DNA of 64,000 nucleotides. It comes from Paracyclopina nana. Lineage: Eukaryota; Arthropoda; Copepoda; Cyclopoida; Cyclopettidae. How positions within the stretch are numbered: the stretch's first letter is position 1; each line of letters starts with the position of its first letter. Of this stretch, positions 12,856 to 59,231 are shown piece after piece. Both the position numbers and the translations under genes were made by a program. The stretch is taken from assembly GCA_019096065.1 (NCBI GenBank), contig JAGUCH010000002.1:16876501-16940500 (forward strand). Reading direction: 5' to 3'. The notes below the pieces were generated by a model, which was given only the letters and a program-made list of their open reading frames with translations, ran no database searches and was not told the DNA's origin.

Positions 12856-15800
12856 TCATTCATAAGGGATGTGAACCCCCGGGGGTCCACCAGACCCGCT
12901 TGGTTCCATGCCTGATCCTTCGCCTATCCACGATTCGGGACTTGGAGGATAGTCACCAGCACCAGCAGCCTCTGGATGTTGATACGGATCAGTGTCATCT
13001 AGAAATAAACATATTAGAATCATAACAATAACATTGATGTAGGGCGATCCCAGCGGCCGTTTAGGGCAATAAGCTAAAGGCGTAAAGTTGCTGGATTCGC
13101 AGCGCCATCTAGCCAGGAAACTTTAGCAAGTACATTTGACATGGCTGCACTACATAGGCGATCACAAATGGGCTATTTTTTGGCTTTTGGTGCACTAATT
13201 CCAAAAACGTAATAAATATGACATAATCTACGGATAAAATGGCACCCTTTCAAGCCATAAAACCATATTAACCTAATTTTTCTAGCCTGGCTCCGCTGAT
13301 CAGCCAATCAAATTGCCGCTCGTGATCACGTGACAAGTTTCGCGCACGGCAGTTTTTCCAAATATGCTTGCCCAAAAAGCACCATCTAGCGAAAAAGTTA
13401 GTCAATCTAATGGCTTATAGCTGGGATTTTCAGCTGACACTTCTGGAGAAAAAAACTGAGTTGCAGCGTTTTTGCAACTTGAGTGATAGTTTGAAAAGAA
13501 AACCATGCAAATTAGTATCATGAAACTTTTAGAAGACTAGTGTCACAACAGTAACATAACAATAACAAACGCAAGTAGCACGCCTAGCGGACGGAAAGTT
13601 GAAACATTTGGGATTAGGGAGTAGTCGATTCAAAATTCAGTGCTACAAGATCCCTTGATGTGCGCGTGCAGTGAATTTTGGATCGCTTACATCATCTAAC
13701 AAGAAAAGGATAAAAAAGGACCGATCTTAGGGCAATTTTTGTGTGCATTAGCTATTTTTTTAGTTTCGTGTTGGCTACAAGTTTTCTAAACTGTTAGAAA
13801 TCATCAAGATCAATGGAGCAAGTTTTTTGGCACGCCAATTGAGAAGTCTGCAGATTATTTTGATTCTTGTTTTTATATTTCAGCCTAAAAAAAGTAGTAC
13901 GGTTGTGTAAACCATGAACCCTGAAATCCCAAGTATTTCTTCAGTAATGTCACTTGATGGCGCATCATTGTTATGATACTTTTGTCTATGGCGCAATGAT
14001 TTTATAAGTGCTTTTAAATCTATAGTAACCATGAGATTATGATATTACAATGTTGGATTCCTGATGCTAAAAAACTTAAGTAATTACTCGCCCTTTAAAA
14101 AAAGTGGCTTGACTCGTGGAAATGAAACTTGATCTTGATCTTTACTCCCAAGTATTTCTTCAAAATGTCGGTAGATGGTATATCTTTGTTATGACACTGC
14201 CCTCTATACGCAGGGTAATGAAAAATATATCGATTTTCGGAACATTTGCTAACACATGCTTAGAAACCTCTCGAGTTGCTTTCTCGCCGCTATTTGCGCA
14301 CCGCATTCCTGTCTGAAGCTTACCAAGATATAAAACAATTTTTGTCTGTTCCCACTAACATCATTAACGGCTTTCCATTTTTAGAAAAGTAAAGATATTC
14401 ATATTCGAGAATTTTCCATATTTTTATGTTGTGTAGGAAAAACGTACAATTATTATGTAAAATATGCAAATTCTTGAAAGTTGGAGCTAAAAAATGTTTC
14501 TTGCTCTCTAAGCCATTTATCAAAACCGTTTTTTGAAATATTTATCCATTATCTTTTAAGGTTGGCACAATTCCTATAGTGGCTGATAAAATTGAACTTG
14601 CAAATTTAGCTTTGCACAAACGAAAAATTCCCAGCCCTGGACTTCTAAGTTGAAATTGTTTCATAGAAGATTTAAAGGAAGCTTTTATCCAACCTACGCT
14701 TAGATTAGCCTCGATGATATTTGCACAAATTGGAATTTGCTTTGTGTAATCAAATTATTTACGAATGAAAGTTGCTGCAATCATCTTGGCTGCAATCATA
14801 TTAGGCAGCAAAGCAAAGCAAAGTAACTTTGTTGGCTCATTTCTCATAAACTTTTAAACCGATTGGTGCCATATTGCATGGGATTCATAAGAGTTGCCGT
14901 ATATTTGCTCAATTTAAAATCTGAGCAGCACCCAATTTTCCTTTGATAGGCTCAGCTTTGCTTTGCCGCTACAAAGCCATCTTTTTGTTGCCTCCTCGGA
15001 ATTGAGCTAAATAAAGCATGAAAAATTTTGAGGCAAATCTGATGAATCTCACCGATATTGATTCGGATCAGTTGAGAAGCAGCTGAGAAATGAGCAATCA
15101 ATGTTACCTTGCTTTTTCTTAAGCTTAGCTGCCTTATTTACTATTTATGCGCATGTACTATGTTTTTAAAAAAGCCAAAAAAAATGTCGTATGGCAACAG
15201 AGTTTTGCATTTAGACCACTTAAGAAATGCCTCTTAACTAGTTGAACCAAGGAACGAGTAGACAAAGCTAAGGCAAAATTAGGAAAAACTTTCAATTCAT
15301 CAGCTGGATCTTTGCAGCAATAAACCTGCAATCGGTTAAGTTGGTTCTTATTAATTCATGTAATGCATGCACAGTGGCTCAAAATGCCTTCTGGACGCGC
15401 ACGGGAAAAAAACTCGCGAAATCGTAGGAGTCAATTTTCATAGGGCCGTAAGCTAAAAACTAACATTCTGGGCTCCCAAGTCCGCAAATTTCCGCAGGCA
15501 ATTTTGATGAATAATCATTAAATGGGGTCTTATTGACCTCGCAGCCATAAAAGAAAAATTCAATTCGATTCCAATCAAAAGTTATGGATGCCAAAAAAAT
15601 GGCAAAAAATGGCTATTCTACCATTTTCTTGCTGAACACTTTTTCAAGGAAAGTTTGATTTCGTAGTCAAATTTGAATATGTATCTGTCAATTCAAACCA
15701 TTTTTGGCTCTTTTCTTTGCCTAGAAGTCAACCCAATTATAATTTGAAAATTGGTGGTTAAATGAGAATTCGGGCGATTTGGCGGATTTTCTCGTGCGCG

Positions 15801-18800
15801 TGAAAATGGCTTTTTGACCCACTGTGGCATGGTAATTTTTGCAACCAAAGTAGCTTCAAAATTCCAATTTTTCGTCCCCATGTGAAAATGGTAAAGTGCT
15901 TTCACTTTTTCAGATGGATAGCAGCCATCCATTTAGCACGTTTTGCACTGAAGAAGACCATGAATGGCAATGTTAGTGGGAACCATGTAAAAAGGGAGAG
16001 TGTCACTGCAATTGATCCCCGAAAACAGACAACATCTTTACGTAATTCAATAGAGAGAACCCAGAACAGACGGTGGCATTAATTGCAGCAGTAGCTGCGC
16101 TACGCGGCTGCCATCTGTTGGGAGTTTTGACTTCGTGACTCATGGGATCGATAAAGAGCTCTATACTGCAGGTGAATTGTTCACCACATGCCGGGAGTTT
16201 CTTAGAATGCGTGCATCACTTACGGGGAACCATGTAGCCACTCGGATTATTGGGGAACCGTTGAAGTAGCTCAGATCCTGGTGGTATATGATGGGGGGGC
16301 AGGGGGGGCACAGGGGGCACCTGCCCCACTGAGGAAGAAGGGGGGTACGAGCCCAAGTCCTGACCTGGCTCGATCAAGAGGTTGCTGTTGAAGCTGTCAT
16401 TGCTGTCCACTGTACCTGCAACAAGCAGGAAATGAGGATTCCTGAGCTTTTCCAAAGATTCATGCATTAGGCTGGGAGAGAAAGCAGTGCGAATTTATGG
16501 GGCTTTTGGATCGACTCTCACGCAACAATTAGGTAGCTAAGCAAAGCAAAGCTAAGCTGCTTTGTTGGCTCGTTGCTCAGTAACGTCTGCTTTGATTGGT
16601 ACCAAAGACGGCGGGATTCATAAGAGTTACCTAATAATTGTTGATGTCAAATCCGAGGCTCCTTTATGGTGCCCTATTTTCTTTCATGTAGCTCAGCTTG
16701 GCTTTGCTTAATTCTGATCTTTTGATTGCTGCCTTGGATTTGGACATAATAATGCTTAAACAATTATTAGGCACCTCTGACGAATCCCACCAATTTGGGT
16801 TCCAATCAGTTGAGAAGTTGCTGAGAAATGCGCAATCAAAAGGAGGATCCAGCAACATTAGGCAGCTAAGCTTAAGAAAAAGCAAGTTAACTTAGATTGC
16901 GTATTTCTCAGCTACTTTTTAACTGATTTGAACCAAAATTGGTCGGATTTGTCAGAGTTGCCTTACAATTGTTCATGCATAATTCTAATAATAATAATAA
17001 AAGATTGGTTTTAAGCAAAGCAAAGCTGAGTTAAGCGAAAGTAAATTGGGTACCCCACTTGGCAGCCTCGAATATGCACCATATTTTATATTAACAATTA
17101 TTATGTAACTCTCATCAATCCCTCCAATTTCAGTTCCAGTCAGTTGAGAAGTTGCTGAGAAATGTGCAATCAAAGTTACCTTGCTTCTGCTTAAGCTTAG
17201 CTGCGTAAAGTTGTTAGATCTCCCTAAAATTATGAAAAGCTACATTCAATAGTAGTAGGAAGATCTCACAATATTTAAGCAGCCAAACATAAGTAACATT
17301 AGTAACTTTTTTCTCAGCAACTTCTCGATTGAATGGAGCCGACATTGGTGGGATTCATCCGAGCTACCTATTAATTGTTGATGTTTAATTCAGTCCAATT
17401 CCGAGGCGGCAATCAAAAGATCGGTTTCAAGCTAAGCAAAGCTGAGCTTAGTGAATGAAAATAAGTCACCACTTCGCAGCCTCGGATTTGCACAAAGCTA
17501 TTATGAGGCAACTCTCATGAATCCCACCGACTTTGGTACCAATCCGTGCAGACATCACTGAGTGACGAGCCAACAAAGCTACTTTGCTTTGCTTTACATC
17601 GCTGCCTAATTGAAGAGCTTGCGAACGAGCTCTTGTTTTTAAAACTCACATTGGTTGTAATCCAGCTCCAACTCGGAATCCGACTCTCCTCTCTGCTTGT
17701 CACCACCAGGAGTTCCACTCGATCTGGTTGGGGACGAGGATGGCTTGAGGCCACGGAAATATTGGCCCCAACGAGTGCGGCCGGCGTCCTTTTTCAGCCG
17801 TTTCTCCTTAGCTCTGCGATTTTGAAACCACACTTGCACCACTCTCATGTCAAGTCCGGTATCTTGGGCTAGCTGCTCCCTTACATGCCTGGCTGGCTTT
17901 GGGGAATTTTTGTAGGCCTCCTTCAACACTTCCATTTGGCGAGCAGTTATTGTCGTGCGAGGACGTTTGTTCCCATCCACTCCGTCTGAGAAATAAAAGT
18001 GGATATAAATTGAAAATCACCCTGGCTTTTATGTGGTGTTCATCTACATCATCTTGAGGATATTTTAGGGGCTCAAAGTTGCATTATTTGTTCACACATT
18101 GACCTGCCAACACCCAAAAAAATATTTCTGAAACCCAACCAGAAATTTCATTCCGCAATATGAGATCAACTCGGCCACAAAAAATATGTGACTGATTTGA
18201 GGGACTTTTGGGAGTCACAACTTAACCACAAAGTTGTGCTACTCAACAAAAATTTTGCATTCCACAAATATGTGGAATAATTGTAGCATTGAAGGTTACA
18301 CAATTTTGTGTAACACAAGGTTGGGCAAATTCTGAGTCACACAATTTGACAACAAATTGAACACAACTCTTTTTTTAATTAGAAGTCGAGTTCCACAAAC
18401 AAATGCCATTTCGTCACGGATTTCAGCCTCAAAATGCCCGATTTGAGTTACTCTTAAGTAAGTCTCAAAAGCACCAGTGAAGCTTGGGGAAAAATCCAAG
18501 AATTTAGTAGTCTAGCTTAGCAAATTATTAAGAGATGGCTCTGCTATCAAATCCATATTATCTAAAAGTAATTATGTTAACAACTTTGCTATGATTAGAG
18601 AGTTTCAAAAACATTGCTAATAGCTTTAAGTCCAAACTAAATTAGTATTGAAGCAAAAATAATTTTTTTTCAAAATTATTATGGAACTATGAAATATTTA
18701 AACCAAATCAATAAGCCAGTAAGTTAGATAAGTATGTAGACTAAAAATATTTTCCATCTGCCAAGTCCTACAATTGATGGACACTTGCACATCTTGTCTG

Positions 18801-21444: not shown

Positions 21445-22084
21445 TTCTGGTCGTTGTTCCAATAATTCTGCTTCTTTGTCTGGTGGCTCTCTTCTGATCG
21501 CGGCCAAATCTTCTTCTTCTTCGATGCGTGTAAACGGAGGGTGGAGCCTCCGAGGTCCGTCCTACTTTCATCGATTTTGACTGCGAGCGCACTGTTACCT
21601 AACACCAAAGAGCTGCTTTGAGAGCTGGCACCAAGAAAGAGAGAGAGAGCCAGGCTTGCAGACAAATGGGAAAGCTGAGGGGGAAATGGAGTTGTTGGCC
21701 TCCATTTCCTAAATTAGTTTTTTCCATCTAATCAAGCAACACTAAAATTATACAAATGCTTTGAATGATTAATAAAAAGAGAAGATTTCTTGGGGGGCTT
21801 TTTTTCAGTAAGAAAAGTGGCCTCTCCCCCTCAGCTTTCATTAAAGCCATGTGCTTTTTCTTCTCCTTTCCGTCCTTTTTAAAAATGCTCTTCATCTACT
21901 ACCACGACAAAATCAGTCGTAGATTTAGCAGCCTTAAATCAATGAATGTGAAGTTAAAGCTGTCCTTTTCTGTTGCATGTTTAGGTAATTTGTGACAAGT
22001 TGACATTTTTGTAAGATTGAAATGTGAAAAATAGCTTTTTCTAAAAAAAAAAACTTTGGATCTCTCGAAAACATTTCAAAAAGC

Positions 22085-28552: not shown

Positions 28553-31500
28553 CTAATCGATGCAGATCACGTCATCATCGTCGTCATCCACGTGGATCAT
28601 CGTCGGATCCGCTGGTGGCATGGCAGCATTGCTGAATTGAGCTGAATGCGGCCTTGGTCTCTTTGGCGGAGGAGGAGGTGGTGCCACCTTCTTCAGAGCG
28701 CCAGGCAAACTCGAACGAAACGACTTCAGCTTGTCGAGAGCTTCTTGCGCTGCTGATTTCGACGTGGACGGAGTTATCTCTATCGTAGTCGTCGTCGTGG
28801 CTGGCCTCTGTGATTTCGCGCCTGACAGCTTGGCTCGTTCTCGCATGAGGAGATCGTTGGCCGAGGCCACCGCGGCCGCGCTCACGCTACTGCTAATGCC
28901 ACTGGTCGTTGGAACTCTGGTGATGGATGTGGAGATTCGCTTGGCAGAGGGCTGCTCCTTTTTTCCCACCTCGGAAACGATCACCTTGGACAAAGTGATT
29001 CCGGAGAGCAGGGCCGGATTCTGCTTGGCCTTGATCACTTGCGCTTGCGCTGGCTTCTTCGTCTCAGCCTTGGCCATCAGGACCTTGGTGGTCTTGGTCA
29101 GGCTGACTGAAGGTGGGAGCAGAGGCGTGGACGTTTTGATGCCACTGGATTTGCTCGCTGTCACCGTGACCGAAGCTTTCTTCTTGGGCACAGGCGAGGA
29201 CTGCTTGGAGGGAGGACATGCACCGCTTCTGGATGATGATGACAATGACGCTGGTGAGGAGGAGGACTGGGCCTTTTTCTCCGACTTTGTCACGGAAATG
29301 GTGCTGGGGAGCGAGGTCAGCAAGCTGGTGTAGGAGGCCGTGGCCGCGGCAGCATAGGCACTCAGGTACGCCTGTGCTTCAGCGGTGTAGGAGGACTTGC
29401 CGCTGCCTCCAGCATTGCCGCCTGCCATCATGGTCACGAGCTCGTTGTAGTAGGACGCAGCGTTCACGTAATCGATGGCAGCCTTGACGGAGGTCGCATC
29501 ACTGATGCCCAATGCTGCCAAAGCCGCACTGCTCGAACTCGCGACGTTGGCCGAAGATGACGAAGGTGAGGATTGCGATGCTCCGGAAGATGTCCGATTG
29601 CTATTTTTGAGCAAGGAGGACACCGTTCCGCTCGACCCAGCCTTGGAGGGCCGATGGTCCGCACTTGTCATCCGGTTGCAGTAGGCGTTGACCTCGTCGA
29701 ACGAGGCGCTCGCGTTGGCGCTGATCGACTTGTACAAGTCCACCATGTGGCCCATGAGCGCCTCGTCCCTGCTCTGCCCTCCTCCGACCTTGCGCAGCCG
29801 GCTGAAGATCTGGTGCACCTCCAACAGCACGGCCACTTGCGACTCTTTCGGCTTGCTCCTCACGCACATCTCCGCCTTGGTCTTGATGATCTGACGCATG
29901 AGGGCGTAGGCCTGCTTCGAGAACGACCTCCGTTGGCTCTCGAAGAGGTACTTTTGGTCGTTGCTCGGCGGTTTCCGCAGCAGGATCGAAATGTCGGTGA
30001 GCATGCTGGGGTCGTTCAGCTCCGTCGCCAGATCCAACACGGTGCCCACGCACTTGCTCATGTGCGTGGAAAAGCTGCCAGCTCGGTCAATTTCCGAGAG
30101 TGGCATCCGCCAAATGCCATTAAACAGATTGTTGGCTTTTCGGTCTCCGAACAGGCAAACGCTATTATAGTTGACTTTGGCGCTCGGAGCCACCACCTCG
30201 TTCCCCCATAGGTACTTCCGAGCCTTTCGCAAGTCCTTGTGCCGCCTCGATTTCAAGTGGTACTGGCCAAGGAGATGCACAGCCTTGAAGTGAGCGGAAA
30301 ACCGATGAGTCACCGTCTCCAAGGCTTTCAGGCAGGCTTTCGCGATGCCGTTCCACAGGGAAGCACTGCTATCCTCGTCCGGATTGGGGACTCCGTCAAT
30401 CTTTGGCTTCTTGGCAGGCGGTGGATCGCTGTCACCTAAAGCATTATTAGTCTCTGCAGTTTGCGCAGGCTGCTTCCCGTCAAACACCACTCTGGCCACA
30501 TTGTCCAGGCTGGTCAGCATCTCCCAGATCTTCCGGAGCTCATCGGCCGGGGGCTGGAAGGTGTCATCGGCCCTCAGCTCCAACTTGAGGACAGAGGCGT
30601 GGATTCGATAGTAGACTTCGATCAGCTCCAAGGCGTGTTCTGGTGGAGAATTGAAGTTGATCCTCTTGGGCACGGCAGCTCCTTGAGCCACCAGATTCTC
30701 AATTGCCCGAAAGTAGAGCTCGAGAGAGGCTACGAGAGGCTTCTTCCTTTTCTCAAACAGTTTGCCCTTCATCATGTAGAGCAGCCATCGTTCATCGTGC
30801 TCGTTGCTCTCCTCCTCCTCCATGGTGCCATCCGTGGCCTTCTCCTCGGTGATCCGCAGGGCAGCGTCGTAGTTCTCCTCGGCGAAAGCCATGAATTTTG
30901 GCTTGATCTCATCGATAAGGGTGAAGAGCTCCATCGAGAGATTCTCCACGTTCTCTTCGCTCACTTGACGCACGCAAAACGAGTGCATCATGTAGGCAAA
31001 GTTCCCACTCTCGATCCGGATTGTCGTGCTTCGCCCACTGAGCTTGATGCACTTTCGGAAACACTTCATGATAGCGTTCGACGTCGACAGAATCAGCTTC
31101 ACGGTGTCATTATTGAGCTCGGCAGCTTTGCCATTGTTCTCCCCATTCATCTCGTTGATTTTCGTCTCCAGCCCATTGACGAGGGAGAGGGTCAACGGGA
31201 CCCAGGAGTCGATCCGCTTCTTGTTCCAAGACAAGTCAACCATGTAGAACTCGACAGCTTGCTCAAATTCGCTGTTCTTGAAATAGTAGTCGGCAAGGAG
31301 GTAGAACAGGTCCAGCATCTCCACAGGGAACGGCTCTCGGTGGTCATCATCAGCCTCTGCTATAACGCTGTCTTCGTCATCACCCTCTTTGGCAGTGAGC
31401 ATGCGGTTGTCAAAGGTGGGAAACTTGAAATCCGCATGCGACAGGTACTTTTTCATCAGACTCGTTCGCTTGGCAATCCGAAACCGATCGGGCACAAGCG

Positions 31501-34480
31501 CAACGATCCTCCGGAAAAAGACCACCGTCTCCGAGCTGATGGAGGCCGACTTCAAGTCGTCATATTCGGGCAGCTTTTTTGGCCTCAAATACAGGTAGGG
31601 GTGAAGGGACCGGTCCCAGGTGAAGGCAACATTCGATACGCTGTGGTCCACCAAATGCCTCGCTTTCGACTTCTTGCTGGGGTGGGCATACAGGCAGAAA
31701 AGCGCTTGCTCCACACTTTTGCACAGCTGGTCGCTGGTTCCCTTGTGAGACACTCCCTTGAAGAGCACATCGACAATCCCTTTGACGAGGAGGGTGAGCA
31801 ATTTTCCGCCCTCCACAGTGCACAGGGACAGAGGCCCCAAGTAGTCGTGAGCACTGCATAAAAAGTTGACTGAGCAAGGCACATCGTCTTCAAACTCCTC
31901 CATGGACTTTTCGTCGTGAGCAATGAGGTGGTACAACAGGACCCAAGGCAGAATCGTCTTTTCGCCCAAGTCGCAATCCTCTTTGCCGTCCACTTGGCTG
32001 AGCACCAACCGGAGCAGATTGCTGGCCAGACGCGGCCTTTCCTCCAGGGACGAAAGGTCGCCGTCGAGCATGACAAAGCAGCACTCGAGAGACTTGAGCA
32101 GATTCAGCAGGTCACTTTGGTAGGGCTCCAAATCATCATGGTGGCAGGTCAAGATCTCGTGCACGGCCTGCTCGATCCAGGCCATCGAGGACTCGTAGTC
32201 ATTCAGATGCCACAGAGCATCGACCATCATCAAGAGGTGGAAGAGTCTGGTTCCGGTCAAAACTGGTGCCTTGCTGCAATTCGCCACCTCGAGGTTGGCC
32301 AAAAGGACATCTTTGACCAGCCTGTACTCCTGCTCTTCGTAGAGCTGGTTGACTCTTGAAATGAGCTGCCTGTTCCTCTGTGTCTCTATGAAAGCGTCCA
32401 CCTTTTCCTTCCGGAATATCTCACAATCTAATATGGGAGACTTTAATTCCTGTGCGTCCACCGCGTCCAGGAATGGCTTCATTCGGTCGGCAATACCAGA
32501 GGCCTCGAGAACCTTTTATTAAAAAAGAATGGCTAATGAATTTGGTAAATAGAAAAACTCAGGTCATCATCTTACCTTGCCCTTAAATTTGTAATAGTGC
32601 ATATGTAAAGAAAGGATTCGCACAGCCATTGGTCGTGAGACACGAAAGATGTTGAGAACTAAATGCTGGAGATCGTCCCACAAAAACTCGTTCAGTTTCT
32701 CAACCTGCGAAACGACCGCTTCGTCCTCAGCCTCGTAAAAGGACACGGCAGCCAAGTCTCTCATGATGATCTCATTGGCAACGAGCATTGGTTGGAGGAA
32801 CTCGTGCGGATCCTGGGGAACGCACTCCTCGGGCGGGATAAAATGGGGCCGCCAGCACATGTAGAGTTCCAGGTAGAGCTGGTCAAATGATCGAGGCCAA
32901 TGGTAACAAGTTTGGCCAAGCTCGGCAGTGACTCGCAGCAATAGATCCGAGAGGCAGCTGTTCAGGCAAGTGTCGGTCATGCAGCTTTCAATCAATTCAC
33001 CAGCCAATTGCTCCTCCTCCTCACTGGCCAACCAGGACACTTCCATAGGGGGCTGCCTACTCTCGCTTTTCACTGGTGACTTGGCGACTGATTTTTTAAC
33101 TGGAGTGCTGGTGACATTGTCGTCACCTTTTTGCCTGAGCAGGCTTGGTGGGAACAGGGACTCGATCAAGGCCCTGGCAGTCATGTCATCACCTCTAGGA
33201 CACTCCAGCATCGATTCAGAGTTGCTGTCCACTCCGGCCCTGCCGCCAACGCCACGCATGCGAGAACTTCGCCGTTTCTCGATTAGATCCATAGGGACCT
33301 CATTTAGGAAAGACGCAGCTGCACCTTTAGAGCACCGCTTGCTCATGCTGTTGGCATAGCTTTCGCCCACTGCAAAGTCCGCTGCCTTGAGGATGATTTG
33401 CTCCATGAAACCGTAATTTATGGCATCCAGTATAATTCCATCCGCAATGGGCGCAACGATTTCCTCGGACTCTGTTAAAGTTGGCACAGGCAATAATGCA
33501 ACATCATCATTATCGGTTATCATCTGTTCTTCTGCCTCCTCAATCTTGTCCAGGATTTCGTTCATGACATCGCTGACATCCTTCATATCGACCTCATTTT
33601 CTTCTATAGTTGATGGGCTGCTTTCAAATTCCACCGTGCAGGGCTCGAGCAGATCCTTCATTCTTCCATTGCCTCCAGAATTGTATTCTGCGACGACGCA
33701 AGCTATCAGCTGAGATATGGACTTTTTGTCCACTTTGAGGACTTTGGGTGGTGGAGGCTGTTTTGCCTCGACGAGTTGCTGTATTTCAACTACTGGCCTT
33801 GGCACCATGGGCCGTTTCTGCACCTCAGGATCAGGATGGAGGAAGGGGTACTCCTCATAGATTTGATCCTTGAGACGGTGGCCTTTTTCATAGTTGGGAT
33901 CGTTGGCCAACGCCAACTCGATGTACCGCAGGCAGGAAATGCAGTCGTCCAGCTTGTACGTGATGGAGATGACAAGATCAAGGCTGGGCCAATGGCGAAT
34001 CGTCCGGAAGCCCTGCTTGTCGTTCAAACGGAAAGAGTGCTCAAGGGCATTCCTCGCTCGAAGGAGTTGTCCAGCTTTGACAGCGATCACGGCAAATTTG
34101 AAATGCAGGGTGGGATCGGAGTCGTCAATGTCGAGAGCCTTTTCCAGCTCAGTGAGGGCCTCGGAAAAGCTCTCTTTCCTGGACAGGCAGAGGCCCAAAT
34201 ACCGATGGGAATTGAACTGGAGCTTGATGGCGATCGGTCGGGGCTTTTGAGAGTGGAAGCCACATGATGCGAAGTAGGCGTGAGTGGTGAGGTCTCTGAA
34301 CTCATTTTCTGCCAATTCAAAGTTTCCCTCTCCATAGCACAGCAGGGCACGGTTGTAGAGGGTCAAATAGTCGTCATCGCGGAATTCCAGACTTTCCTCA
34401 CCCTTGGACGATCCCTCGGAGGTCTCACCCTCAGAGTCAATGTAGGAAGACTCGTTGAGAGCGCAAAAAGTTGACAGCAT
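28553..34480 (-). CDS. CABIN1: Calcineurin-binding protein CABIN1, two exons
   Basis: Exons 32576-34480 and 28553-32512, separated by a 63-bp phase-0 intron, join to 1954 residues; vertebrate CABIN1 is about 2200. The N-terminus MLSTFCALNESS lines up with the conserved CABIN1 opening, so I take the ATG at 34480; the frame stays open nine codons further but without another ATG. Tetratricopeptide-like helices follow, for instance YLTLYNRALLCYGEGNFELA at about 40 and LTELEKALDIDDSDPTLHFK at about 115. The middle part keeps RWLLYMMKGKLFEKRKKPL and the C-terminal third is Ser/Ala-rich and basic, ending in an acidic HVDDDDDDVICID. CABIN1 is a subunit of the HIRA/UBN1/CABIN1 chaperone that deposits histone H3.3 outside replication. 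The vertebrate calcineurin and MEF2 docking tail is not obvious here. Confidence 0.92.
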
Positions 34481-34585
34481 CTTGCCGCTAATTTGAGCGA
34501 ATTTCACCCCATCACTTTCGCAGAATTTTTATTGTCAACATTGTTATGAACCGCTTTGACTGCCAGCGCTACCAGACTTGTCAAA
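34481..34585. promoter_or_regulatory. Compact divergent promoter interval, CABIN1 / small plus-strand gene
   Basis: Only 105 bp separate the CABIN1 start codon (minus) from the candidate start at 34586 (plus). No TATA box is evident, as is usual for divergent housekeeping promoters. Depends on the small gene being real. Confidence 0.3.
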
Positions 34586-36050: not shown

Positions 36051-36186
36051 TAGGCCAATCCAGCAGGGTATATAGCCCCTGCCGTCGAGGGTAAATAGCG
36101 CCCCCTATTGTGAAAATAGAGCTAGTATCAACGCAGCGGCGTAGCAAAGGGAAATAAGGATTTTTGAGTTTTTCTTGAGACCTATG

Positions 36187-36643
36187 CACAGTGGGTCAAA
36201 AAGCCGATTTCACGCGCACGAGAAAATCCGCCAAATCGCCCAAAGTCCCATTTTACCACTAATTTTTGTCATCTGATTTGGTTGACTTCTGAGCAATTGA
36301 AATAGTCAAAACTGGTTTTAATTGACAGATACAGATTCAAATTTGACTTCAACATCAAACTTTGCCTGAAAAAGTGTTCAGCTTGGAAAATGCTAGAATA
36401 GTTATTTTTGCCCATTTCTTGGGCATCCATAACTTTTGATTGGAATCGAATGTAATTTATCTATGATGACTGAGAGGTCAATCAGACCACATTTAATGAT
36501 TATTCATCAAAATTGGCTGCGGAAATTTGCGGACTTGGGAGCTCTGAATGTCTGCTTTTAGCTTACGGCCCTATGAAAATTGACTGCAACGATTTTGCGA
36601 GTTTTTTTCCGTGCGCGTCAAGAAGGCATTTTGAGCCACTGTG
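36187..36643 (-). mobile_element. Transib-like MITE (family F), 457 bp, TSD CTATG
   Basis: Same family and exactly the same length as 15370-15826 but inverted. Starts CACAGTGGGTCAAAAAGCCG, ends GCCACTGTG. CTATG stands on both sides (36182-36186 and 36644-36648), a perfect 5-bp duplication. Confidence 0.85.
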
Positions 36644-37131
36644 CTATGGAGTATTTTCGAAAATGATGAAAGTAAACTTATTAGTATTTTTATCAACAAC
36701 AATTTTGGTAAAAAATCTCTGTTTGTGCATGGCATATTCATCCAAGAACTCAATATCAATTGGAACTATGCTTTTGGCAAAAAGAAAATTCTCTGAAAAC
36801 ACTAACATTTTGCAAATGTCTTCAAATGACTGCTCATGTTTTGGTTTTATGCTACACTATCATCAGTTTTTATATGAAAGCAAATGGAAAAGGTGCTGCA
36901 TTCAGAGGCCTAAGATCAGCGGAGGAATTTTCAGAAACGCAGGAAATGAGCTCCCTCTATATTTTCCTACGCTCAAATGCAAGGCTTATTATTGGATGCT
37001 TTAAGAATGTTAGTCGATAGAGCTTAGTGCTATGACATGTGACAATCAAGGCACTTGCAATGATCAAAACTTTGGGCTTTTTTCGTGGAGCTGGACACAT
37101 GCGCGTAGCCCTCTTTTTCGTCTCTTTATAT

Positions 37132-42591: not shown

Positions 42592-43293
42592 TATATGTAT
42601 ATATGGCAGCTAGGAGGACCAGCCTTGGGCCACTTCGTGCTGGCTCTCCTGCCGTGAGGAGTTGGTAAGACCCGAGAAAGGCTTCTGCAGTAGCAGCTTT
42701 CTAGCAATTGGAGAGCCGCACCAGGACTACTGACTGCACTGCTCAGAGATGGTGGCAGCAGCAAACCTTTCTCAATCTGCCGAGGCTGGCTACTCCGGCG
42801 GCCTCGCCTCCTTCTTCTCCTCCTCTTCTTCTTGGTCGTCGTCATCGACGTAGCATGGCCACATCTGGCCCTGGCCTGCAGCAGTGAGCAATGCCACACC
42901 ACAAGACCAAGAGGATCGTGGATTGCAAAGTGATCTTCTTCTTCATCCAGCATTGTAGTAGTGTTAAAGTGTTCAAGCCATCGATCCGGACCTGAGAGGT
43001 GATTGTCCAAACGCAATTCTTGGCTCAGATCTGTTTCACTTTCAAGAGCTGTGTCTGGACATCGCCCTTCGCGACCGGATCTTTCCCCGCCGCCAATCAT
43101 GGAAGACCATTTCCAATCACCATATAATAATTATTCGCGAATAATAAAAAACCTGATGTGTATCTTATCATTGTTTTGAAGTTGCTTTATTGTTGTTGGC
43201 GTTTTCGTCATATTTGATATGCAATGAGAAAATTCCAAGAGCTAAATCATAGTTATTATTATTATTATTGTAGTAGTATTGGTTGCATTTTTG

Positions 43294-43847: not shown

Positions 43848-45338
43848 CTAGGCCTCGTCCCCGCGGAAGTCCTTGCTCTGGTGTCCGAGCCTCCGGGCGA
43901 GCTCGTGCATGACCTCCTTGAAGATAATACTGTCGACGTTCTGGCCGAGCATGTAGAAGAGGAACCAGTCGCCCATCTTGCTCTTCTTGACGATGGTGTT
44001 GATGACCTCGCGCTTGATGAGCCTGAAGCGGATGTAGAGGAGGTAGGCACGCATCCGCGGACTGATGATTATCACGAGTCGGTACACGACGACGAGGGCC
44101 GACAGGACGCCGAGGATCAAGAACCAGAACCAGAGGAAGATGTAGATCTTCTCGTTGACAATGTTCAGCGGCAAAATGCAGAGCGCGTCGTGCTTCTCCA
44201 CCTCGCCAGAAGCACCGAACTTGTGGAACGTGCACTTGGTCATCCGGGGGAAGATGTAGACCATGGGGTCCAGCCGGTCCTCCTGGTCGCGCTCCGCGAA
44301 CGCTATCACCTCCAAGCCGAACGTGAAAAAGGCACCGTCGAAGAATCTGTCCATCAAGAACATCTGACCTGCAATCATCATTGAGAGGTGTGACGAATGA
44401 AGCTTTTGAAGCAGCATTAACTGCCTTAATTGCCGCCCAAGTCAAATCCCAAACGCCAATGTGCAGTTTCACCTTCGATTGATTTACATATAACTGGGTG
44501 GTGAGGCAGTTTATGCTGCACAACGACATGAACTCAACATGGGTTCAACGAAGGACGTAAGAGACATTTTGGTCATACCTATAATGTTAAGGAAGGCGAG
44601 GAGCTCGCAGAAGAAGTACCGATACGCCCACCAGTTGTGGTTCTTGAGGTTGTCGTACAAGTAGTCGAGCAGGAGCTTCTTCTTCTGCTTCTTCTCCACC
44701 TCGGACACGACCCCGATGTCGAGGTCCATCATCAGGGCAGTGATTTTGCCGGCCTCCCAGTTCTTCCAAAGCCACCGCGGAATGTAGAACAGGATAGACT
44801 GAAACAAAGTATATATAGTAATACTAACTGCCTTAATTGCCGCCCAAGTCAAATCCAAAACGCCAATGAGCAGTTTCACCTTTGATTGGTTCACACATAA
44901 CTAGGTGGTGAGGCAGTTTATGCTGCATACCGACATGAACTCAACATGTATTAAAGTATATATAATATCAGTTACCTGGAAAAACAGAGTGAATCCGACC
45001 CACTGGTAGTAGGAGACGTAGCGCCGCTCGTCCTCCTCGTCCGAGTTGGAGGTGATGACGCCGGGGTGGGCGACCTCGTCGCCCACGTGGAGCGACAAGG
45101 CCCTGGGGATGGTGTAGGTGGAGTGGATCCAGCAGTAGAGGTCGAAGACGTCGTCCGGCACGTCGTTGGTGTGAATGCAGTCGATGGGGTTGCCCACATA
45201 TTGGCGGGTGGTGATGATCACCGAGAAGGTGAGCAGGATCACAGAACTGATGCACCAGTGCAGACGGAACACTGACGAGTCAATGTGGATGTGGCTGATC
45301 TTCACCAAGGTCTTGAGCCTGAGGAAAATGTCGAGCAT
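43848..45338 (-). CDS. Innexin gap-junction protein, three exons
   Basis: Exons 44976-45338, 44579-44798 and 43848-44368 join to 367 residues, the usual innexin length. Four membrane segments are visible: about 27-47, 112-132 (with the innexin signature YYQWV at 110-114), 178-202 and 268-290 ([20 protein letters not shown]). Both extracellular loops have the expected paired cysteines: 54 and 69 in loop 1 ([13 protein letters not shown]), 240 and 258 in loop 2 ([19 protein letters not shown]). Six to eight such subunits form a hemichannel. The first ATG gives the canonical N-terminus [11 protein letters not shown]. Both introns contain MITE A remnants. Closest to the Inx2/Inx3 group by eye; numbering not assigned. 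Confidence 0.95.
44405..44555 (+). mobile_element. MITE family A remnant, innexin intron 2
   Basis: Carries CATTAACTGCCTTAATTG, GGTGGTGAGGCAGTTTATGC and GAACTCAACATGGGTTC. The outer ends are lost. Confidence 0.6.
44818..44950 (+). mobile_element. MITE family A remnant, innexin intron 1
   Basis: Nearly the same sequence as the remnant in intron 2 (CTAACTGCCTTAATTGCCGC, GGTGGTGAGGCAGTTTATGC), more alike to each other than to other A copies. Either intron-to-intron conversion or two insertions of one subfamily. Confidence 0.6.
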
Positions 45339-46935: not shown

Positions 46936-46974
46936 GGACCTAACCCAAACTTTTAACAACACCCAAGAATTTTG

Positions 46975-47516: not shown

Positions 47517-49874
47517 CTATTTTTTCTTGAAGAAGTCGAGGAACTCGTCCATAATATTATGCTTATGGCTGCTGGAGGACTGGGCCAGAATGTCCCTATT
47601 GGCGATCATTGCCTTGATCCGATCGTCCTCGGCAATCTGCTTCTCCTGGCTGTCCTGAGCATGGACCAGCTCGTTGCGAGCATTGACCGCCTCCACATAC
47701 TGGCTGAGCAGCTTCTCCTCCTCGAGCCGCATGGCCTCCGTCTTTTGAGACTCGTCGAGATCGGAGAACTTTTGCAGTTGGCGCTGCAGCCGGTCCTTCT
47801 TATGCTCGATCGCCCTCTCCTTTTCGGCCAGATTGAGTTGCATCTGGCGCCTGACCACCGAGTTCTTCTGGTTCACCAGGCTCACGTAGCGCTGCAGCAT
47901 GGCCTCGAAGTCCGACTCGTCGGCCTCACTCTTGTCCTGACTCCGGAGCGACACCTCCAGCTTTTCGATCTCGGCCGAGATCGCCTCCTCCTCGCGCGCC
48001 AGCTCGCTCAACTCCTCCAAAATGGTCATGCTCTGGGTGAGCCGACCACCGCCAATGACATCCTCATTGTGACCGACATTGACATCGTCATTGTCATCGT
48101 AGCTGGAGGAGTCGTGAGCGGCCGCGATGAGCCGTTTCACCCGGTCTCGGCTGCTCAATTCTTCCAATCCTTTGGCAGCCTCCGGGGAGGACGTCACGGT
48201 CGATGGACCAGATGATGCTGCGTCTTCTTCTTCTTTGGCAGGCGGAGGCGAAGACGGAAGAGTCGTCCCAATGCTGTCATCCGGATCCGTCCTGGCTTTC
48301 TCTTCCTTGATGACAAGGTGTCCCACCTCGTTTCTAAAGTACTTTCCGCGGACGTACCACTTCTTTTGGAAGCATATCACAGCCTCGGCGTCGATGGCGG
48401 ATTCGCTCGTGGCGGCTGGAGCGAGGCGAGCGCGCAGATCATTGAGGAATGCGCTGACGACACTCTTGTCCGTCGAAGTGGTGCAGCCTCGAATGGCCGA
48501 CGTGTCGACACCTCCCAACAAGTCCGCAGCGTCGAAGGCGATCTCATTGTTCTCAGCCGCATTGTCCGAGGAGAGATCTGCCAAGGGGATGAGTGAGGGA
48601 GCCGCCTGGTGAATGATGGCACAAAAGCCGAGGCCGTTGCGCCAAGAGCTCGTCAAATTAGTGACTTTCACTTGGGGCTTGGAGCTCGCGAGAGATGCCC
48701 TCGCCCACTCAATTAGATCCTTTTCTGCGGACTTCATTATCTTTGGACTGCTCGCGCACTTCATCATGGAGCCCACTGCGGGCACATTGATTCCGATCGA
48801 ATGCTCCTCCATCTCTATCTCTTCCTCATGCTCGTCATTCCAGTCGATCTCTTTCAACTTGTTCGGGCTGCTCTTCGCTGTTGGCCCCACCAAATTGGTT
48901 CCAGGCTTCTTCGCCGGAGACGAAGGAGGGAGTGTCAACTCCTGTGACTTTGACATCACCAGGGGAGTGCTGGTGACCAAGTGCTCTGCCTTGATCCCGT
49001 TTGGAGTGGTGGGCGGAGAGTCCTGGGAGAGTATCTTTTGGCGAGGGGGCAACGGCGGAGGGGTGACGACGTTTGGCACGATCTTCGATCCGGAAGGCTT
49101 TTTGACGACCGGTGAAGATATCACGAGCAGGCTGTCATCAGCGTCGTAGTCTTGGTTGTCCAGCCGGTCCAGATCCCCGCAAGAGCCCCTCGGTGTCGAC
49201 CCGGGCGTAGTTGGATGACTAGGTGCCAAAAGCGATCCGGTCTCCTCCTCCTCCGCGTCCTCTTCGTCCAAGCAGGGCTCGGACGAGTCTTGAGCGGGAT
49301 CCCGGACGCTCTTGCGAATGGTCAAGTCGACCGAGGCCGAGGACACCTTCGAGGACTCCGGATGCAGCTTGAGGCGAAACGAGACGTCCTTCTCGGCTGC
49401 CGACTCGAAATACTCGCTCAAATTGAGGCGCGCCTTGGCCAGCAACTTTCGCTTCTTCCCCTTCTTCTTAACGTCGACGTTCTCGATGCTGATGTAGGCA
49501 TCTTTGTGTCTGAGCACCTGCGCGCTGCTCTTCTTCGCAAACTTGGGCACCGTGATGGACAACGCGACCACGAAAGGGGGATGCCAGACGGCCGACCCCG
49601 TCGACGTGCACTTGAGCGAGGGCTCCCAAAGCACTGGCTCCGAGGCTCGCGTCTTTCGCCGCCTCTCAACTATGGCCGAGATGTGAGAGGGTTGGTAGCC
49701 GTTCAGCGTGGACACCAGGACATCCTTGCAGGACACGGTGAAGTAGGCCTTGGCGGCCGCCACCGTCGGAGCCTTCAAAGTGTTGGTGGCAGTCGGTGAC
49801 AACTTGTCTCCCTGACTTTTTTTCCGACCTCGCCGACTCAGACGCAGAGAGCCAACCCGGCGGAGTGTGTCCAT
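47517..49874 (-). CDS. EHBP1: EH-domain-binding protein 1 (EHBP1), single exon
   Basis: A continuous 785-codon frame from an ATG. Domains in order: N-terminal C2-like (NT-C2) about residues 43-190, with YFTVSCKDVLV and AYISIENVDVKKKGKKRKLL; an acidic and Pro-rich linker including PPPLPPRQK near 273; a single calponin-homology domain about 385-485 (DLIEWARASL, TSSWRNGLGFCAIIHQ); and a C-terminal bMERB coiled coil about 610-755 (EAMLQRYVSLVNQKNSVVRR, QYVEAVNARNELVHAQDSQE). NT-C2, CH and bMERB in this order define EHBP1, which couples Rab8/10-family membranes to actin during endocytic recycling. Two features are odd: no NPF motif, the ligand of EH domains, occurs in the frame, and there is no intron over 2.36 kb. 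It is shorter than usual for the family (above 1000 residues) and lacks a C-terminal CaaX box. Confidence 0.93.
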   Translation of the reverse strand: MDTLRRVGSLRLSRRGRKKSQGDKLSPTATNTLKAPTVAAAKAYFTVSCKDVLVSTLNGYQPSHISAIVERRRKTRASEPVLWEPSLKCTSTGSAVWHPPFVVALSITVPKFAKKSSAQVLRHKDAYISIENVDVKKKGKKRKLLAKARLNLSEYFESAAEKDVSFRLKLHPESSKVSSASVDLTIRKSVRDPAQDSSEPCLDEEDAEEEETGSLLAPSHPTTPGSTPRGSCGDLDRLDNQDYDADDSLLVISSPVVKKPSGSKIVPNVVTPPPLPPRQKILSQDSPPTTPNGIKAEHLVTSTPLVMSKSQELTLPPSSPAKKPGTNLVGPTAKSSPNKLKEIDWNDEHEEEIEMEEHSIGINVPAVGSMMKCASSPKIMKSAEKDLIEWARASLASSKPQVKVTNLTSSWRNGLGFCAIIHQAAPSLIPLADLSSDNAAENNEIAFDAADLLGGVDTSAIRGCTTSTDKSVVSAFLNDLRARLAPAATSESAIDAEAVICFQKKWYVRGKYFRNEVGHLVIKEEKARTDPDDSIGTTLPSSPPPAKEEEDAASSGPSTVTSSPEAAKGLEELSSRDRVKRLIAAAHDSSSYDDNDDVNVGHNEDVIGGGRLTQSMTILEELSELAREEEAISAEIEKLEVSLRSQDKSEADESDFEAMLQRYVSLVNQKNSVVRRQMQLNLAEKERAIEHKKDRLQRQLQKFSDLDESQKTEAMRLEEEKLLSQYVEAVNARNELVHAQDSQEKQIAEDDRIKAMIANRDILAQSSSSHKHNIMDEFLDFFKKK

Positions 49875-53735: not shown

Positions 53736-54357
53736 CGATAGGAGCTGTACAATTTACATCTTTTTGGATACTTTTATTCAAGCTATAATACATTTTCAGA
53801 TCAGTGAAAGGCATGAGCTGGGGCAGTTGTCTTTGACAAATCTATAGATGGCTGTGGCCATATCAAAGCTGGTACATTTTTGGGGCATGGAATGGATAGG
53901 TTTTCAAGTATCTTTCTCAATGTGGCTTTCCAAACCCCAAATATTTGGGCTCGCTTGCTTTCTTGCTTGGCTTTGAAGTCTAGGGCTAATGTGCAGAGGT
54001 CAAGTCCACATGCCTACAAAAAGTATGTTGAGATTATTTATGATATTGTCTGGAATATGCTTTACTTGAAGTGGGTACAGATGTCCAATGTGTCAGAGCT
54101 CAAGGCTTGGATGAATTTTGCCTTGCCACTGAATTTTCCATTGCATGCATATCATCTTGGGCTTCTTCTAATGCCTCATCAGTCACATCAAGACTTCCCT
54201 TTTTCAAGATGACCAGAAATTTGGAAAAAAGCCCTTAATCTAAAATTAGAGTCTCAAAAATGAACTTGTGAAATAATTTCCCAATTTACCTGAGCCTCTG
54301 TCAGCCACTCGTTAGTTGAGAATCTTGGGGATCCATTTGGTAGCTTTGCAACCCTCA

Positions 54358-57300
54358 TTAGAGCAACAACATCCTTAGTCTTTGTTTTCTGTCCTGACAT
54401 TTGGCCCTGATGAAAATGTCATGAACAAACTGTTCTTGATCCTTGGAGAAACTGGTGTGGGCTCTCTTTTCAGGCAAAGCAAATCCTTGCTGAAAGTGTT
54501 CTTGCATGATTGAATCTTTCATTGGAAAGTCATAAGGAAACTCAAAAAGCTTCAACTCCTCCAAATGACTTCCTAAAGTGCTTTTTCTGCCACTGGCTAG
54601 ATCTTTCATTACCAGAGGAGAAGCCAAACTTATCAAAGTAAAGTTTCCTCAATTTAGACGATGCTGACTGCCTTGGTAATAGGATGCTGACAAATCCCGC
54701 TCATCACATGCTCTTCTAAGCCCTTGTTGGTGAGAAACTGTCCATTGCATTGGCTTGTTGGGCACTGAAACAAGGCTCCATCACCATAAGTCAAAGAAGA
54801 ATCTTCTTGATCATCAGCTCCTAAGTCCAATCTTTCAAGCTCTTCAACAGCACCTTGAGGCTTCAATTCCCTCTTAGTAATTGTTTTGGAGGGTGGCAAA
54901 ACTTAGCATCAATTTGAGGCCCATATTTTACGCTAGGTCCATGGGGCTGAAGAATGACACAATCATAGATTGCTGTTTGCACAACCTTGTCAATCTTGAT
55001 TACTTCTCCACTCCCGATTCCACTCTGTTTGTGAACACGTAAGCCATCATGCAAGAAACTCAAAGTCATTGTACATCTTGATGCCCTTAATTTGCCTTTT
55101 CTTTGGTGAGGGTGCAGCATCTTTCACAGTTCCAGCAAATACCTAATGAATTGGCAACAGGATTTGACCTAATAAAACAGGTGATGGTGAAGATATTTTA
55201 TTTTTACTCTCCATACCTAACAAGGGCCTCTGAGAACTCAGCTGGTGTAGTTGCCTTGTTTCCATTTTGGATGTATTGCCAAACTGCTCTTCATAACAGC
55301 AGTGATCTATATAATAAAAAGAACTATAAAGTGCATTACTATAGTGGGTTTTTTAAATTATACCCCATCGGCCTTAGACTTTCCAGCTCCTGGAGTGCTA
55401 AAAATATATCGCATGATTTTCATCTGGCCAAATTGATCTCTCATTGCAAGGAGGGGCAGCAGAAAATTTTCAGAGTGATACGTTCTACAATAAAACAGTT
55501 GTAATTTATGAATTAGACTTTTAAATAGAGCATGCTACCCTGCATTGTCAGATTTGATGTAGAGCTTTTTTTATGCCAGGGTTAGCTCGAAAATACTCTC
55601 CAGTGCTGTTTTGATCAGTGCCACATTGACACTGCTCTCCTGATTTTCAGCATTTGTCAGAACAGACATGAGAAGTTATTTTGGTGCTCCATGTGCCATC
55701 ATCATTGCAAACTTGCTGCTGAAAACAGAAATGTGCCATGGAATACCAGATTTTCCAAACCAGTTCTTCTGAGACTCTCTGAACTCAGTAGGAATGAATT
55801 TCATTGCCCAGTCAATTGTCAACAATGCCACAGACTCATCTTGTTGACTGGCTATTAGGTCCCATGCTCTATTTTGACAGAATGACTGAATCAGATGGTG
55901 CTTGTAAAGAATGATTTTCTCAGAGCACACTGGATTTCATATTGTTGCTCAGCAAAGCTCTCTGGGCTCATATGACCTTTCTTCAAAGCTAGCTCAAGCA
56001 ACCCTTCAAACGATTGAATGACCTTGTCAAGAAGACTGCAGTAGAGGCATAGTTCTTCATGATCATAGCCACAATTTGATGCAAATGCCTCGCCTATGTC
56101 ATCACTGAGAGCATGGGTGACACAGTGAGATGCAATAGGACTTGTCATTGACAAATTGAACTGAAAATGATTCTTGATGTATGCCATCACCACGGAGATC
56201 CCTGCTGTTAGGACTTTCACTTGAGACTCTTCAATTGCATGGTGTGATAGTTGGCCAGCAATGTCAGATAGCAAACCAAAACTGCTCATGCACTCCTCCT
56301 GAAAAAAGTACTTTTCTTAGCACAACTTGTTTGGAAAATATTAGTGCTCTTATTACATATGTTGAATTGATGCCTCTCATCATTTTGGGACTTGCTGCAG
56401 GCATTGCATTGAGGAATCGAAAAAGTGTGCTTTCACTTGGAACTTTCACACCTTGCTCAGCAAGGAAGAGGCGACACAATCTCACAACTTCAGTTTTCTG
56501 CTTGAGTCGTATAATTTTGGGTATTGTTCCCTTTGTACCAGCTTCATCTTTCACAGAAATAGTGCCATAGGCAACATTTTGAATGATGCTGGGAGAGGTT
56601 AAAAATCAAAGATAGAGAAACAACCTCTGGCTCAATCCTCATTCTTTCCTTAGGAGTAGCCCAACCTCCATGAAGCCTCTTTGGAATCGATAATAGTGAA
56701 GCTTGGCCTTTCGATACAGATATCTTGTCAAGGGTGGGTTCCATTCTGGACCAGAGTTCAAAACAAACCTCATCTCGTCAAGGTCATCTTCTTGGTCACT
56801 TTGGTCATCATCAGGGTAGACATCATAGTCTCCAGATGGCAAGGTCAGAGGTTGAATCAGGCTAGCTCTAGCAAAACCATATTTTGGGACCAGAATAGAG
56901 AGAATTTGAACTCTTTCTCTTCCTGATTTAGCATAGTTAAAGGCCTTCAGATCTCCTTCAATATAGGATCAACACTTTGTCCACCTAACCTGCTTTCAAC
57001 AGCTTCTGAGTCTTTCAATGCCTCCCAGATCAGTTTGTCATTTCTGGAAGAGTAGAAATGGCATGTATAACTGCAGCCACACTTGCAGCCATCACACGCT
57101 TGACTTCTCTTTGGGTGGATGAGGGACCCAATTCATCAAAGGGCTTGCTCAACCTAAACCTGCATCGTACATGCTCATGATTTTCTTCCAGCAACTGGTT
57201 CAATGTATTGAGATGATTAGGCTCATCCCCAAACGAAGTGATGAGTGCATTTCCTCCTTCCTCATCAATCTCCATCAAATCACTTTCAGGAGCTGAGGGT

Positions 57301-57401
57301 AGACTCCAGCCACTACTTGTTGCCGGTAGAGAAGGAAGTGAGCTTGCACTACTCTTTGTTGGCTCATTTTCATGTTCCATTGTTATTGGTTTGGCAATCA
57401 A
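54358..57401 (-). pseudogene. Decayed mobile-element protein, probable transposase-type
   Basis: Fragments in several frames on the minus strand, in order: an acidic N-terminal part (57030-57401); YDVYPDDDQSDQEDDLDEMR; IPKIIRLKQKTEVVRLCRLF followed by VPSESTLFRFLNAMPAASPK; a segment with CGYDHEELCLYCSLLDKV; then LLTIDWAMKFIPTEFRESQK and WFGKSGIPWHIS; a zinc-finger-like FQCPTSQCNGQFLTNKGLEE; and finally SFSKDQEQFVHDIFIRAKCQ. This order matches, from memory, a large uncharacterised family that is multi-copy in many invertebrate genomes. The conserved Asp in DWAMKF and the repetitive distribution suggest a transposase, but this is inference. Some breaks may be introns (GTAAGT- and CAG-like sites exist); several look like frameshifts. 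Confidence 0.6.
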
Positions 57402-58205
57402 AGTTGTCTATGAAACTTGATGTAGTCTGAGTTGCAAATTAGGGCCTCCAGCTGGGATGAGAATGTTAAGACACTCCATAGGCTGACTGACTCATCTGCT
57501 GGCTAATAGGCTTCAATTGGTGCTTGGATGATAGGCGTCGCCCTCCATTATGATTTGGCCACATGCAGTAGAATTTAGTGTTGTATCTAACATGAAAGGC
57601 TTTTGTCAGGTTGTTCAAATGAGCCTCACAAACTTCCCAGTCCTCCGCAGCATTTTGATCTCCAAATATGCCACATCTTTACAAGGAAAACAAACCTGAC
57701 ATCTTCAGGGACTTCAGATATTGGTGAAACTTTTCCAACACATGACGACTCCATTGGAGTTCCTGAGATTTCCCTTCCAACATGGCAGCCCTAAAAACGA
57801 TGGAAGAGGGTATTTTTTTAAATCATTCATGATCATCATTCCTCAACTTTTTCTACCGTTTGTACCAAACCAGCTTGCTTTTGGAACATTTTGAACTTCT
57901 TTCAAGATGGCAGCCTGTTGATCATTTTTCAGCTGTAGAAAGCCTGCTCTTGCCATTTCTGTAATGCATTGAGCAAGCATGGATTCAAAGGATGAGTCAT
58001 TCCGCTTGCTGAAAGATCTTGCATCACTGACAACACTTTTGGACTCATATACAGTGCAACTAAAGGATGATTTCAACTTGATCTCAATATAATTGGGAAT
58101 TATCCATATTTTAGTTGTGATAGAAGGCCTAAGATTTTTTCAGCCTTTTGAGAATTGGGTTGCAACATCTCTCAGCTCACTGATAAAATTGAAAATACCC
58201 CTCTG

Positions 58206-59231
58206 CACAGTGGGTTTATTTGCCGATTTCACGCGCACGGAAAAAAGTCGCGAAATCAACGTAGCACCTTTTTCTTATTAGCAGAGTTATCAACGGTGGT
58301 CGGAAACGACCAAAGTGGTCGTTTTTGACTTACTTTGGTCGGAAAAAATTGGTGGTCGGTGGTCGGAAAAGTGGTCGTTTTGAAAATGACCAAAACAAGC
58401 TAAAATAGGCACTTTTAGTCAAAAAAGGAGCAAAATTCCAATTCAAGCTTGCCCATTTTTCCTTTGGGAAACAATCTTTTACGTAGAAACGTAGCAAATA
58501 AGATTAATCTCAATATAAATATGAAATGAAAGCTCATTTTGATGAGAAACAGCTTCTTACTTTTTAGGCTACTTTTTGCTCAAAGAAGCGACATCAAGAT
58601 AAAAGTTATCTTATAGAAATTTTCCTAAGTAACATATTTTTACAACAGACATTGCTAAGAAGGCTTTGTAGTTGAAAAAAGGACATTTTAAGCGTAAATT
58701 GTGTGAGTTTCGGCCGTTTTTGGGTAGGTGGTCGGTAAAGTGGTCGTTTTTGAAATGGTCTGAAAATTGTGGTCGCAAAAGTGGTCGTTTTTGGCCAAAA
58801 AGGTGGTCGGAAGCCTAAAAATCCGTTGATAACACTGCTTATTAGCGGTAAGCTAAAAATATGCCATCCTGGCACCCGGGAGAGCAAGTAAGACAGCCGA
58901 TTCTGGTGGATTATCAATTTATGCTATAAGCTTGACTTCCTGACTTGGTCACTCAATTGGAGTCGTTTGGAATCAAAAGTTATGGAGATTCAATTTTTGC
59001 TCAAATTGTGCAAAGTTGCTGTTCTACTGAATTCGCCAAAATCAACTTTTGCCCAAAATTATGTTTTCTTCACCAAAATTGAACCTTTATCTGTCAATAA
59101 ACATTAATTTGTGCTCTTTAGGTAGCCTAAAAAGTCCTACAAATTAGAAGCTGAAAATGGGTGCTAAAATCGGAAATCTGCGATTTAACATAATTTCCCG
59201 TGCGCGTAAAATCGGCTTTTAAACCCACTGT
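58206..59231. mobile_element. Transib-like MITE (family F), TSD CTCTG, interrupted
   Basis: Starts CACAGTGGGTTTATTTGCCG and ends TTTAAACCCACTGTG; CTCTG stands on both sides (58201-58205 and 59232-59236). Without the nested 556-bp hAT-type MITE and one copy of its 8-bp duplication it is about 462 bp, matching the 457 bp of the other two copies. Confidence 0.85.
58282..58837. mobile_element. hAT-type MITE, 556 bp, TSD CTTATTAG, nested in family F
   Basis: Ends are CAGAGTTATCAACGG and CCGTTGATAACACTG, inverted. CTTATTAG is repeated on both sides (58274-58281 and 58838-58845). CAG-type ends and an 8-bp duplication are typical of hAT elements. The interior is rich in GTGGTCGG and GTGGTCGTTTT words. 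Confidence 0.88.

Follow-up and report, generated by a model that had tools for sequence, protein, structure and literature searches.

Three short elements in the genome of Paracyclopina nana are very probably Transib MITEs that were moved by a Transib transposase, a relative of the RAG1 core, acting through CACAGTG ends, a 5-bp staggered cut and target sites resembling C-CANTG-G. The elements lie in a window of 64,000 nt, by which we mean the whole stretch of DNA that was analyzed (GCA_019096065.1, contig JAGUCH010000002.1, positions 16,876,501-16,940,500 of the forward strand), and the searches for their relatives covered the 92-Mb genome assembly in ten contigs. The transposase would recognize ends headed by CACAGTG and excise the MITE, and insertion through a 5-bp staggered cut, with C-CANTG-G-like sites favored, would then leave a 5-bp duplication. 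A resident transposase, or an unseen close relative, may have moved the MITEs in trans. Cleavage could have followed the hairpin route, which has been reported for both HzTransib and RAG (PMC6941560).

MITE copies in the window and across the genome

Direct reading of the window bore out the preliminary description in that all three copies start with CACAGTG, stop with CACTGTG and are flanked by duplications of GCATG, CTATG, and CTCTG, respectively (Table 1). The coordinates given there were exact for copies 1 and 2, whereas the end of copy 3 had been placed at 59231 and is really at 59232. Two copies had been described as 457 bp long and the third as about that length without its insert, and the measured values are indeed 457, 457, and 463 bp, the last after subtracting the 556-bp insert and one copy of the 8-bp duplication that brackets it. 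We labeled this nested insert hAT-like on the basis of an 8-bp duplication and CAG-type ends, which are typical of hAT elements.

Table 1. MITE copies, target duplications, and nested insert in the window, and transposase elements of the genome closed on both sides
Feature	Position	Strand	Description
Transib MITE copy 1	15370-15826	+	457 bp; ends CACAGTG..CACTGTG; basis: sequence and genome matches
GCATG target duplication around copy 1	left 15365-15369, right 15827-15831		direct reading
Transib MITE copy 2	36187-36643	-	457 bp; sister subfamily of copy 1, orientation opposite to copy 1
CTATG target duplication around copy 2	left 36182-36186, right 36644-36648		direct reading
Transib MITE copy 3	58206-59232	+	1027 bp including insert; third subfamily; ends CACAGTG..CACTGTG
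CTCTG target duplication around copy 3	left 58201-58205, right 59233-59237		direct reading
Nested hAT-like non-autonomous element in copy 3	58282-58837		556 bp; ends CAGAGTTATCAACGG / CAGTGTTATCAACGG
8-bp duplication bracketing the nested element	58274-58281 and 58838-58845		CTTATTAG
Transposase element L104			3109 bp; duplication GGTTG; CACAGAA ends; closed both sides
Transposase element L106			3136 bp; duplication GACTT; CACAGAA ends; closed both sides
Transposase element L107			3180 bp; duplication GCCTG; CACAGTG ends; closed both sides
Transposase element L110			3163 bp; duplication CTGTG; one CACAGAG and one CACAGTG end; closed both sides

The MITE ends have the form CACAGTGG(N)TCAAAA, and the 19-bp end pattern CACAGTGGNTCAAAAWGCC was found at 308 exact occurrences genome-wide, against 0 for its reversed control. 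Within the window this end has 5 matches with three mismatches or fewer versus 0.01 expected, the left end of copy 3 being too diverged to count. Copy 1 as a query retrieved at least 40 scored matches from the genome, the best other copy being 97% identical. When copy 2 was used as the query, three additional copies were recovered at 99-100%, and members of the copy 1 group matched at 87-89% on the opposite strand, which defines two sister subfamilies. The subfamily of copy 3 is more distant, with 66-67% identity between copy 2 and the relatives of copy 3.

Further copies were drawn, by search or by place, from the best 40 scored matches of each of three queries. A copy was included if one alignment reached both ends (within 20 bases) and 19 bases of flank were available on each side, and copies with the same flanks were removed. 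The sample of 77 copies that resulted is biased to young copies, these being best-scored, and does not extend to copies that carry large inserts, copy 3 itself among them. The preliminary description had proposed tabulating the 5-bp duplications of further copies, and these hold up well: an exact 5-bp duplication flanks 69 of the 77 distinct copies, one copy has a duplication with one mismatch, and seven have neither. By eye, a 5-bp duplication shifted by 1-2 bases can be read in three of the eight inexact copies (L020, L056, and L096). Identity of the flanks over 4, 6, 7, 8, or 9 bases was observed in 0/77 copies at each length, and over 2 or 3 bases in 1/77 each. Among the copies with exact duplications, both ends read CACAGTG in 37/38, 6/7, and 21/24 members of three groups, and all 69 measure 447-469 bp, copies with large inserts falling outside the alignment rule.

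The elements are short, numerous (as the 308 exact ends attest), and without coding capacity, as expected of MITEs; the longest inner frame is 51 aa in copy 1 and 63 aa in copy 2. Like Transib elements, they make a 5-bp target duplication and have inverted ends headed by an RSS-like CAC heptamer. Two pairs of copies (L078/L079 and L097/L098) have identical interiors at different targets, and copy 2 of the window, at 36187, is 0.2% different from two others that sit at different targets. That identical copies occupy different targets implies that the MITEs moved recently.

One place in which exact ends lie 2792 bp apart (L103, C2:7339321-7342112) was considered as an autonomous partner and rejected, for it is made up of a pair of MITE pieces with other sequence between them and has neither a matching duplication nor a frame longer than 99 aa. 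At about 385-945 of this locus there is a stretch whose ends are similar to those of the nested insert of copy 3.

The window also contains a mir-219 microRNA precursor (42992-43072, plus strand; Rfam RF00251, 64.1 bits) and, near it, an innexin frame (43848-44417, minus strand), both in keeping with an invertebrate source. Long frames on the minus strand include an EHBP1-like one of 785 aa with NT-C2, CH, and bMERB domains (47517-49874) and two that bear TPRs, of 1309 aa (28553-32482) and 646 aa (32567-34507). Since these three frames are uninterrupted, coding exons here can be long.

Resident transposases and the partner of the MITEs

The genome was queried with a Transib transposase sequence, and the 15 matches, which lie at 13 loci, include ten stop-free frames of 453-703 aa. 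To make the homology independent of this query, a profile was built from the genome's own proteins, for which seven of the eight loci read were aligned and L109, a near-copy of L107, was omitted. The exon-2 profile of these seven proteins matches HzTransib (PDB 6pqn, residues 45-485) at E 1.2e-63 and RAG1 and RAG1L chains far more weakly, from E 9e-5. The RAG1 chains matched are of zebrafish type and of mouse and lancelet. A DDE triad (D69, D173, and E385) is invariant in 7/7 aligned proteins and aligns onto the HzTransib triad, which is D126/D225/E436 in PMC6941560; on our own reading, the numbering of the chain is offset by 17 from that of the paper. The preliminary description took a current or past Transib/RAG-like transposase in this genome to be implied by the MITEs, and Transib transposases do match at 13 loci. 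The second catalytic Asp lies in CDQK in families B-D (L107, L108, L110, and L111), in CDGK in family A (L104, L105, and L106), and in IDGK in HzTransib.

The Pfam RAG1 cut-off was exceeded by one of four exon-2 proteins; in the genome itself the Pfam RAG1 model had no match, but it had none in 14 control genomes either and is hence uninformative. A low-confidence structure model of exon 2 (mean pLDDT 54) ranked HzTransib first, at E 1.6e-13 and TM 0.37, and we give weight to these fold matches solely because the sequence search agrees with them. Upstream of exon 2, all seven proteins have a first exon of 229-248 aa, followed by a GT-AG intron at one common position. The structure model of the first-exon protein is likewise of low confidence (mean pLDDT 62). 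With the nonamer-binding domain of RAG1 in mind, the first-exon proteins were compared with solved structures, among which none was significant (best E 9.1, a chance level) and no RAG1 chain was matched. One further locus, L112 (C1:2178674-2179738, plus strand), carries a 703-aa Transib transposase frame that is long enough to be without the intron common to the seven other copies. The 221-base read beside it has a CACAGTGGGCC right end at C1:2180495, on the right side only. This intronless copy may represent either the ancestral form or an intron loss.

Four transposase elements are closed on both sides, and in 4/4 a 5-bp duplication surrounds the whole element (Table 1). Another three (L108, L109, and L111) were read with one CACAGTG end each and one (L105) with one CACAGAA end, and these are not closed. 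Outside the two exons, the four closed elements have no stop-to-stop frame longer than 116 aa, so that, judged by frame size, they encode one protein and lack RAG2, as Transib elements do, and do not have the adjacent RAG1L and RAG2L genes of RAGL elements. In 11/11 ends of families A-D (two of these ends are identical), an A-run with a C after it begins at position 22-25. Its spacing is alike on both sides of an element, which is not the arrangement of 12/23 recombination signals, where an A-rich nonamer lies 12 bp from the heptamer on one side and 23 bp from it on the other. The same feature is found at 36-37 in 2/6 MITE ends, whereas the right end of the intronless copy lacks it. Because their DDE transposase is homologous to HzTransib and 5-bp duplications surround whole elements, we classify the transposase elements as Transib on sequence grounds, and the genome has several such families that look intact.

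The preliminary description had suggested looking for a transposase of the RAG1-core type bounded by the same ends as the MITEs. RAG1-core-like DDE transposases do lie between CACAG-type ends with 5-bp duplications, but the exact MITE ends were found on none of them among the places listed. Specifically, all exact MITE-type ends among those places (100 of 308, 100 of 103, and 32 of 32 for the three lists) are more than 5 kb away from the transposase loci, and the nearest exact end among them is about 7 kb from one, on contig C9. Since no transposase with exact MITE ends was found among the places listed, the partner is one that we infer. Past their first eight bases, 6/6 MITE ends of the window resemble one family C end, with z of 3.8-5.0 relative to 300 simple letter shuffles. 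The block common to the MITE and family C ends is subterminal, at about 36-54, around GAAAAA and CGCGAAATC. The MITE ends resemble families A and B unevenly (z -0.1 to 5.0) and show no likeness to family D (z -0.9 to 1.0). End likeness is not unique to family C, as a family A end also resembles the left end of copy 2 (z 5.0).

It is also conceivable, if rather unlikely, that the Transib transposase responsible for spreading the MITEs has since been lost or broken or is missing from the assembly, and that the resident ones are inactive on them. The lack of exact MITE-type ends near any of the 13 loci, among the places listed, fits such a history, and so do the MITE interiors, which appear unrelated to the eight transposase loci they were compared with (nothing below E 0.4 among the matches listed). 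However, the identical and near-identical copies at different targets call for a recent source, one family C end does resemble the MITE ends, and 5/13 transposase loci lie outside the set that was read at both ends.

Target sites and the nature of the duplication

For the insertion through a 5-bp staggered cut that we favor, the 69 sites with exact duplications provide a view of the target. Their commonest bases are C before the duplication (33 sites), then C (45), A (47), none clear, T (43), and G (52) within it, and G after it (43). The preferred target is C-CANTG-G and is GC-enriched, with 49% GC inside the duplications versus 33% in the flanks. The S-Y-N-T-G pattern formerly proposed for the target is true of the three window copies but fits only 10/69 of the exact-duplication copies genome-wide. 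The supposed contrast with the GC-rich targets usually reported fails, as the duplications here are richer in GC than their flanks. At 29/69 sites the first and fifth bases of the duplication are complementary, fewer than the 35.8 expected from the columns.

At the boundaries of the 69 sites, TGG occurs on the right in 19 and CCA on the left in 18, both in none and neither in 32. The co-occurrence of TGG and CCA, 0/69 versus 5.0 expected (Fisher p 0.0015), is a contrast that was picked after the data had been seen; a looser GG/CC contrast gave 5 co-occurring sites versus 10.7 expected (p 0.004). We regard the mutual exclusion of TGG and CCA as a post hoc lead. A directional target motif was tried and dropped: its held-out score of -1385.9 was worse than that of the symmetric model (-1371.2), and the directional model's score of -13.3 fell inside the range of 30 half-shuffled controls (mean -19.6, best -5.1).

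These observations can be combined into a single reading that we nevertheless think improbable. According to it, Transib ends here would be bipartite like V(D)J signals, with a CACAG heptamer followed at a set spacing by an A-rich AAAAACTCGC-like block, which starts at 22-25 in families A-D and 13-14 bp deeper, at 36-37, in one type of MITE end. The block would perhaps be read by the extra N-terminal part encoded in the first exon, the two spacings would be a naturally occurring parallel to the 12/23 difference, and targets would perhaps be chosen via a single TGG half-site.

Ends that start with CAC are also common to the CACTA, Mirage or Chapaev, and Chapaev3 superfamilies, in any of which the 5 bp would be a misread combination of a shorter duplication and longer ends. 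Taken alone, the duplications of the three window copies would also fit a 3-bp reading within constant bases. This attribution is very improbable, however, as over the 69 sites none of the five duplicated positions is constant, identity over exactly 3 or 4 bases occurs in 1/77 and 0/77 copies, and Transib is the superfamily of those resident transposases that have CACAGTG ends and 5-bp duplications. That the copies are segmental duplications or chance palindromes instead of inserted elements can practically be dismissed: a few copies do have flanks in common (L069/L070 on the right side, L033/L034 on both sides), but 69/77 copies, after same-flank copies had been removed, have different flanks and exact 5-bp duplications, and the reversed end pattern had 0 matches.

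Comparison with known systems

Transib MITEs moved through CACAGTG ends with 5-bp duplications have a place among systems that are already in print. Earlier work (PMC6941560, PMC8355894, PMC9033116, and PMC7204232) describes Transib MITEs, 5-bp duplications, Transib ends whose heptamers are similar or even identical to that of the RSS, and nonamer-like blocks that follow symmetric spacers. The general picture is therefore unchanged, and the elements reported here are a clean example of it. The antibody-gene recombinase and the Transib transposons are related, and a genome that combines several Transib families of intact appearance with hundreds of short passengers ended by the exact V(D)J heptamer and with signs of recent movement offers material for testing how ends and targets are recognized.

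One of the closest likenesses is to the HzTransib element of Helicoverpa zea (PDB 6pqn, with five other entries), and it consists of the homology of exon 2, the catalytic triad, and the 5-bp duplications. HzTransib also has heptamer-like symmetric ends (PMC8289069), as do the elements here, whereas a first exon of 229-248 aa and a GT-AG intron are additional in 7/7 of ours. CACAGTG is the consensus heptamer of V(D)J recombination signals (PMC8289069); the MITE ends have this same heptamer, and the transposases are weakly similar to RAG1. In contrast to the V(D)J/RAG system, the elements here have neither a RAG2-sized frame (in the four closed elements) nor a 12/23 spacer pair. A GC bias of targets is stated for ProtoRAG, Transib, and RAG in PMC8289069, and the GC-enriched MITE sites agree with it.

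Among MITEs, Transib N1-N3 of a mosquito (so named in PMC8355894) and the Transib MITEs of Helicoverpa (PMC9033116) are short and gene-less and have 5-bp duplications, as here. The Helicoverpa elements are given as 83-386 and 75-564 bp in PMC9033116. These insect MITEs differ from ours in host and in sequence. They differ in copy number as well, since the 308 exact ends of the P. nana genome compare with 16 and 5 sequences given for two Helicoverpa genomes in the same source (PMC9033116).
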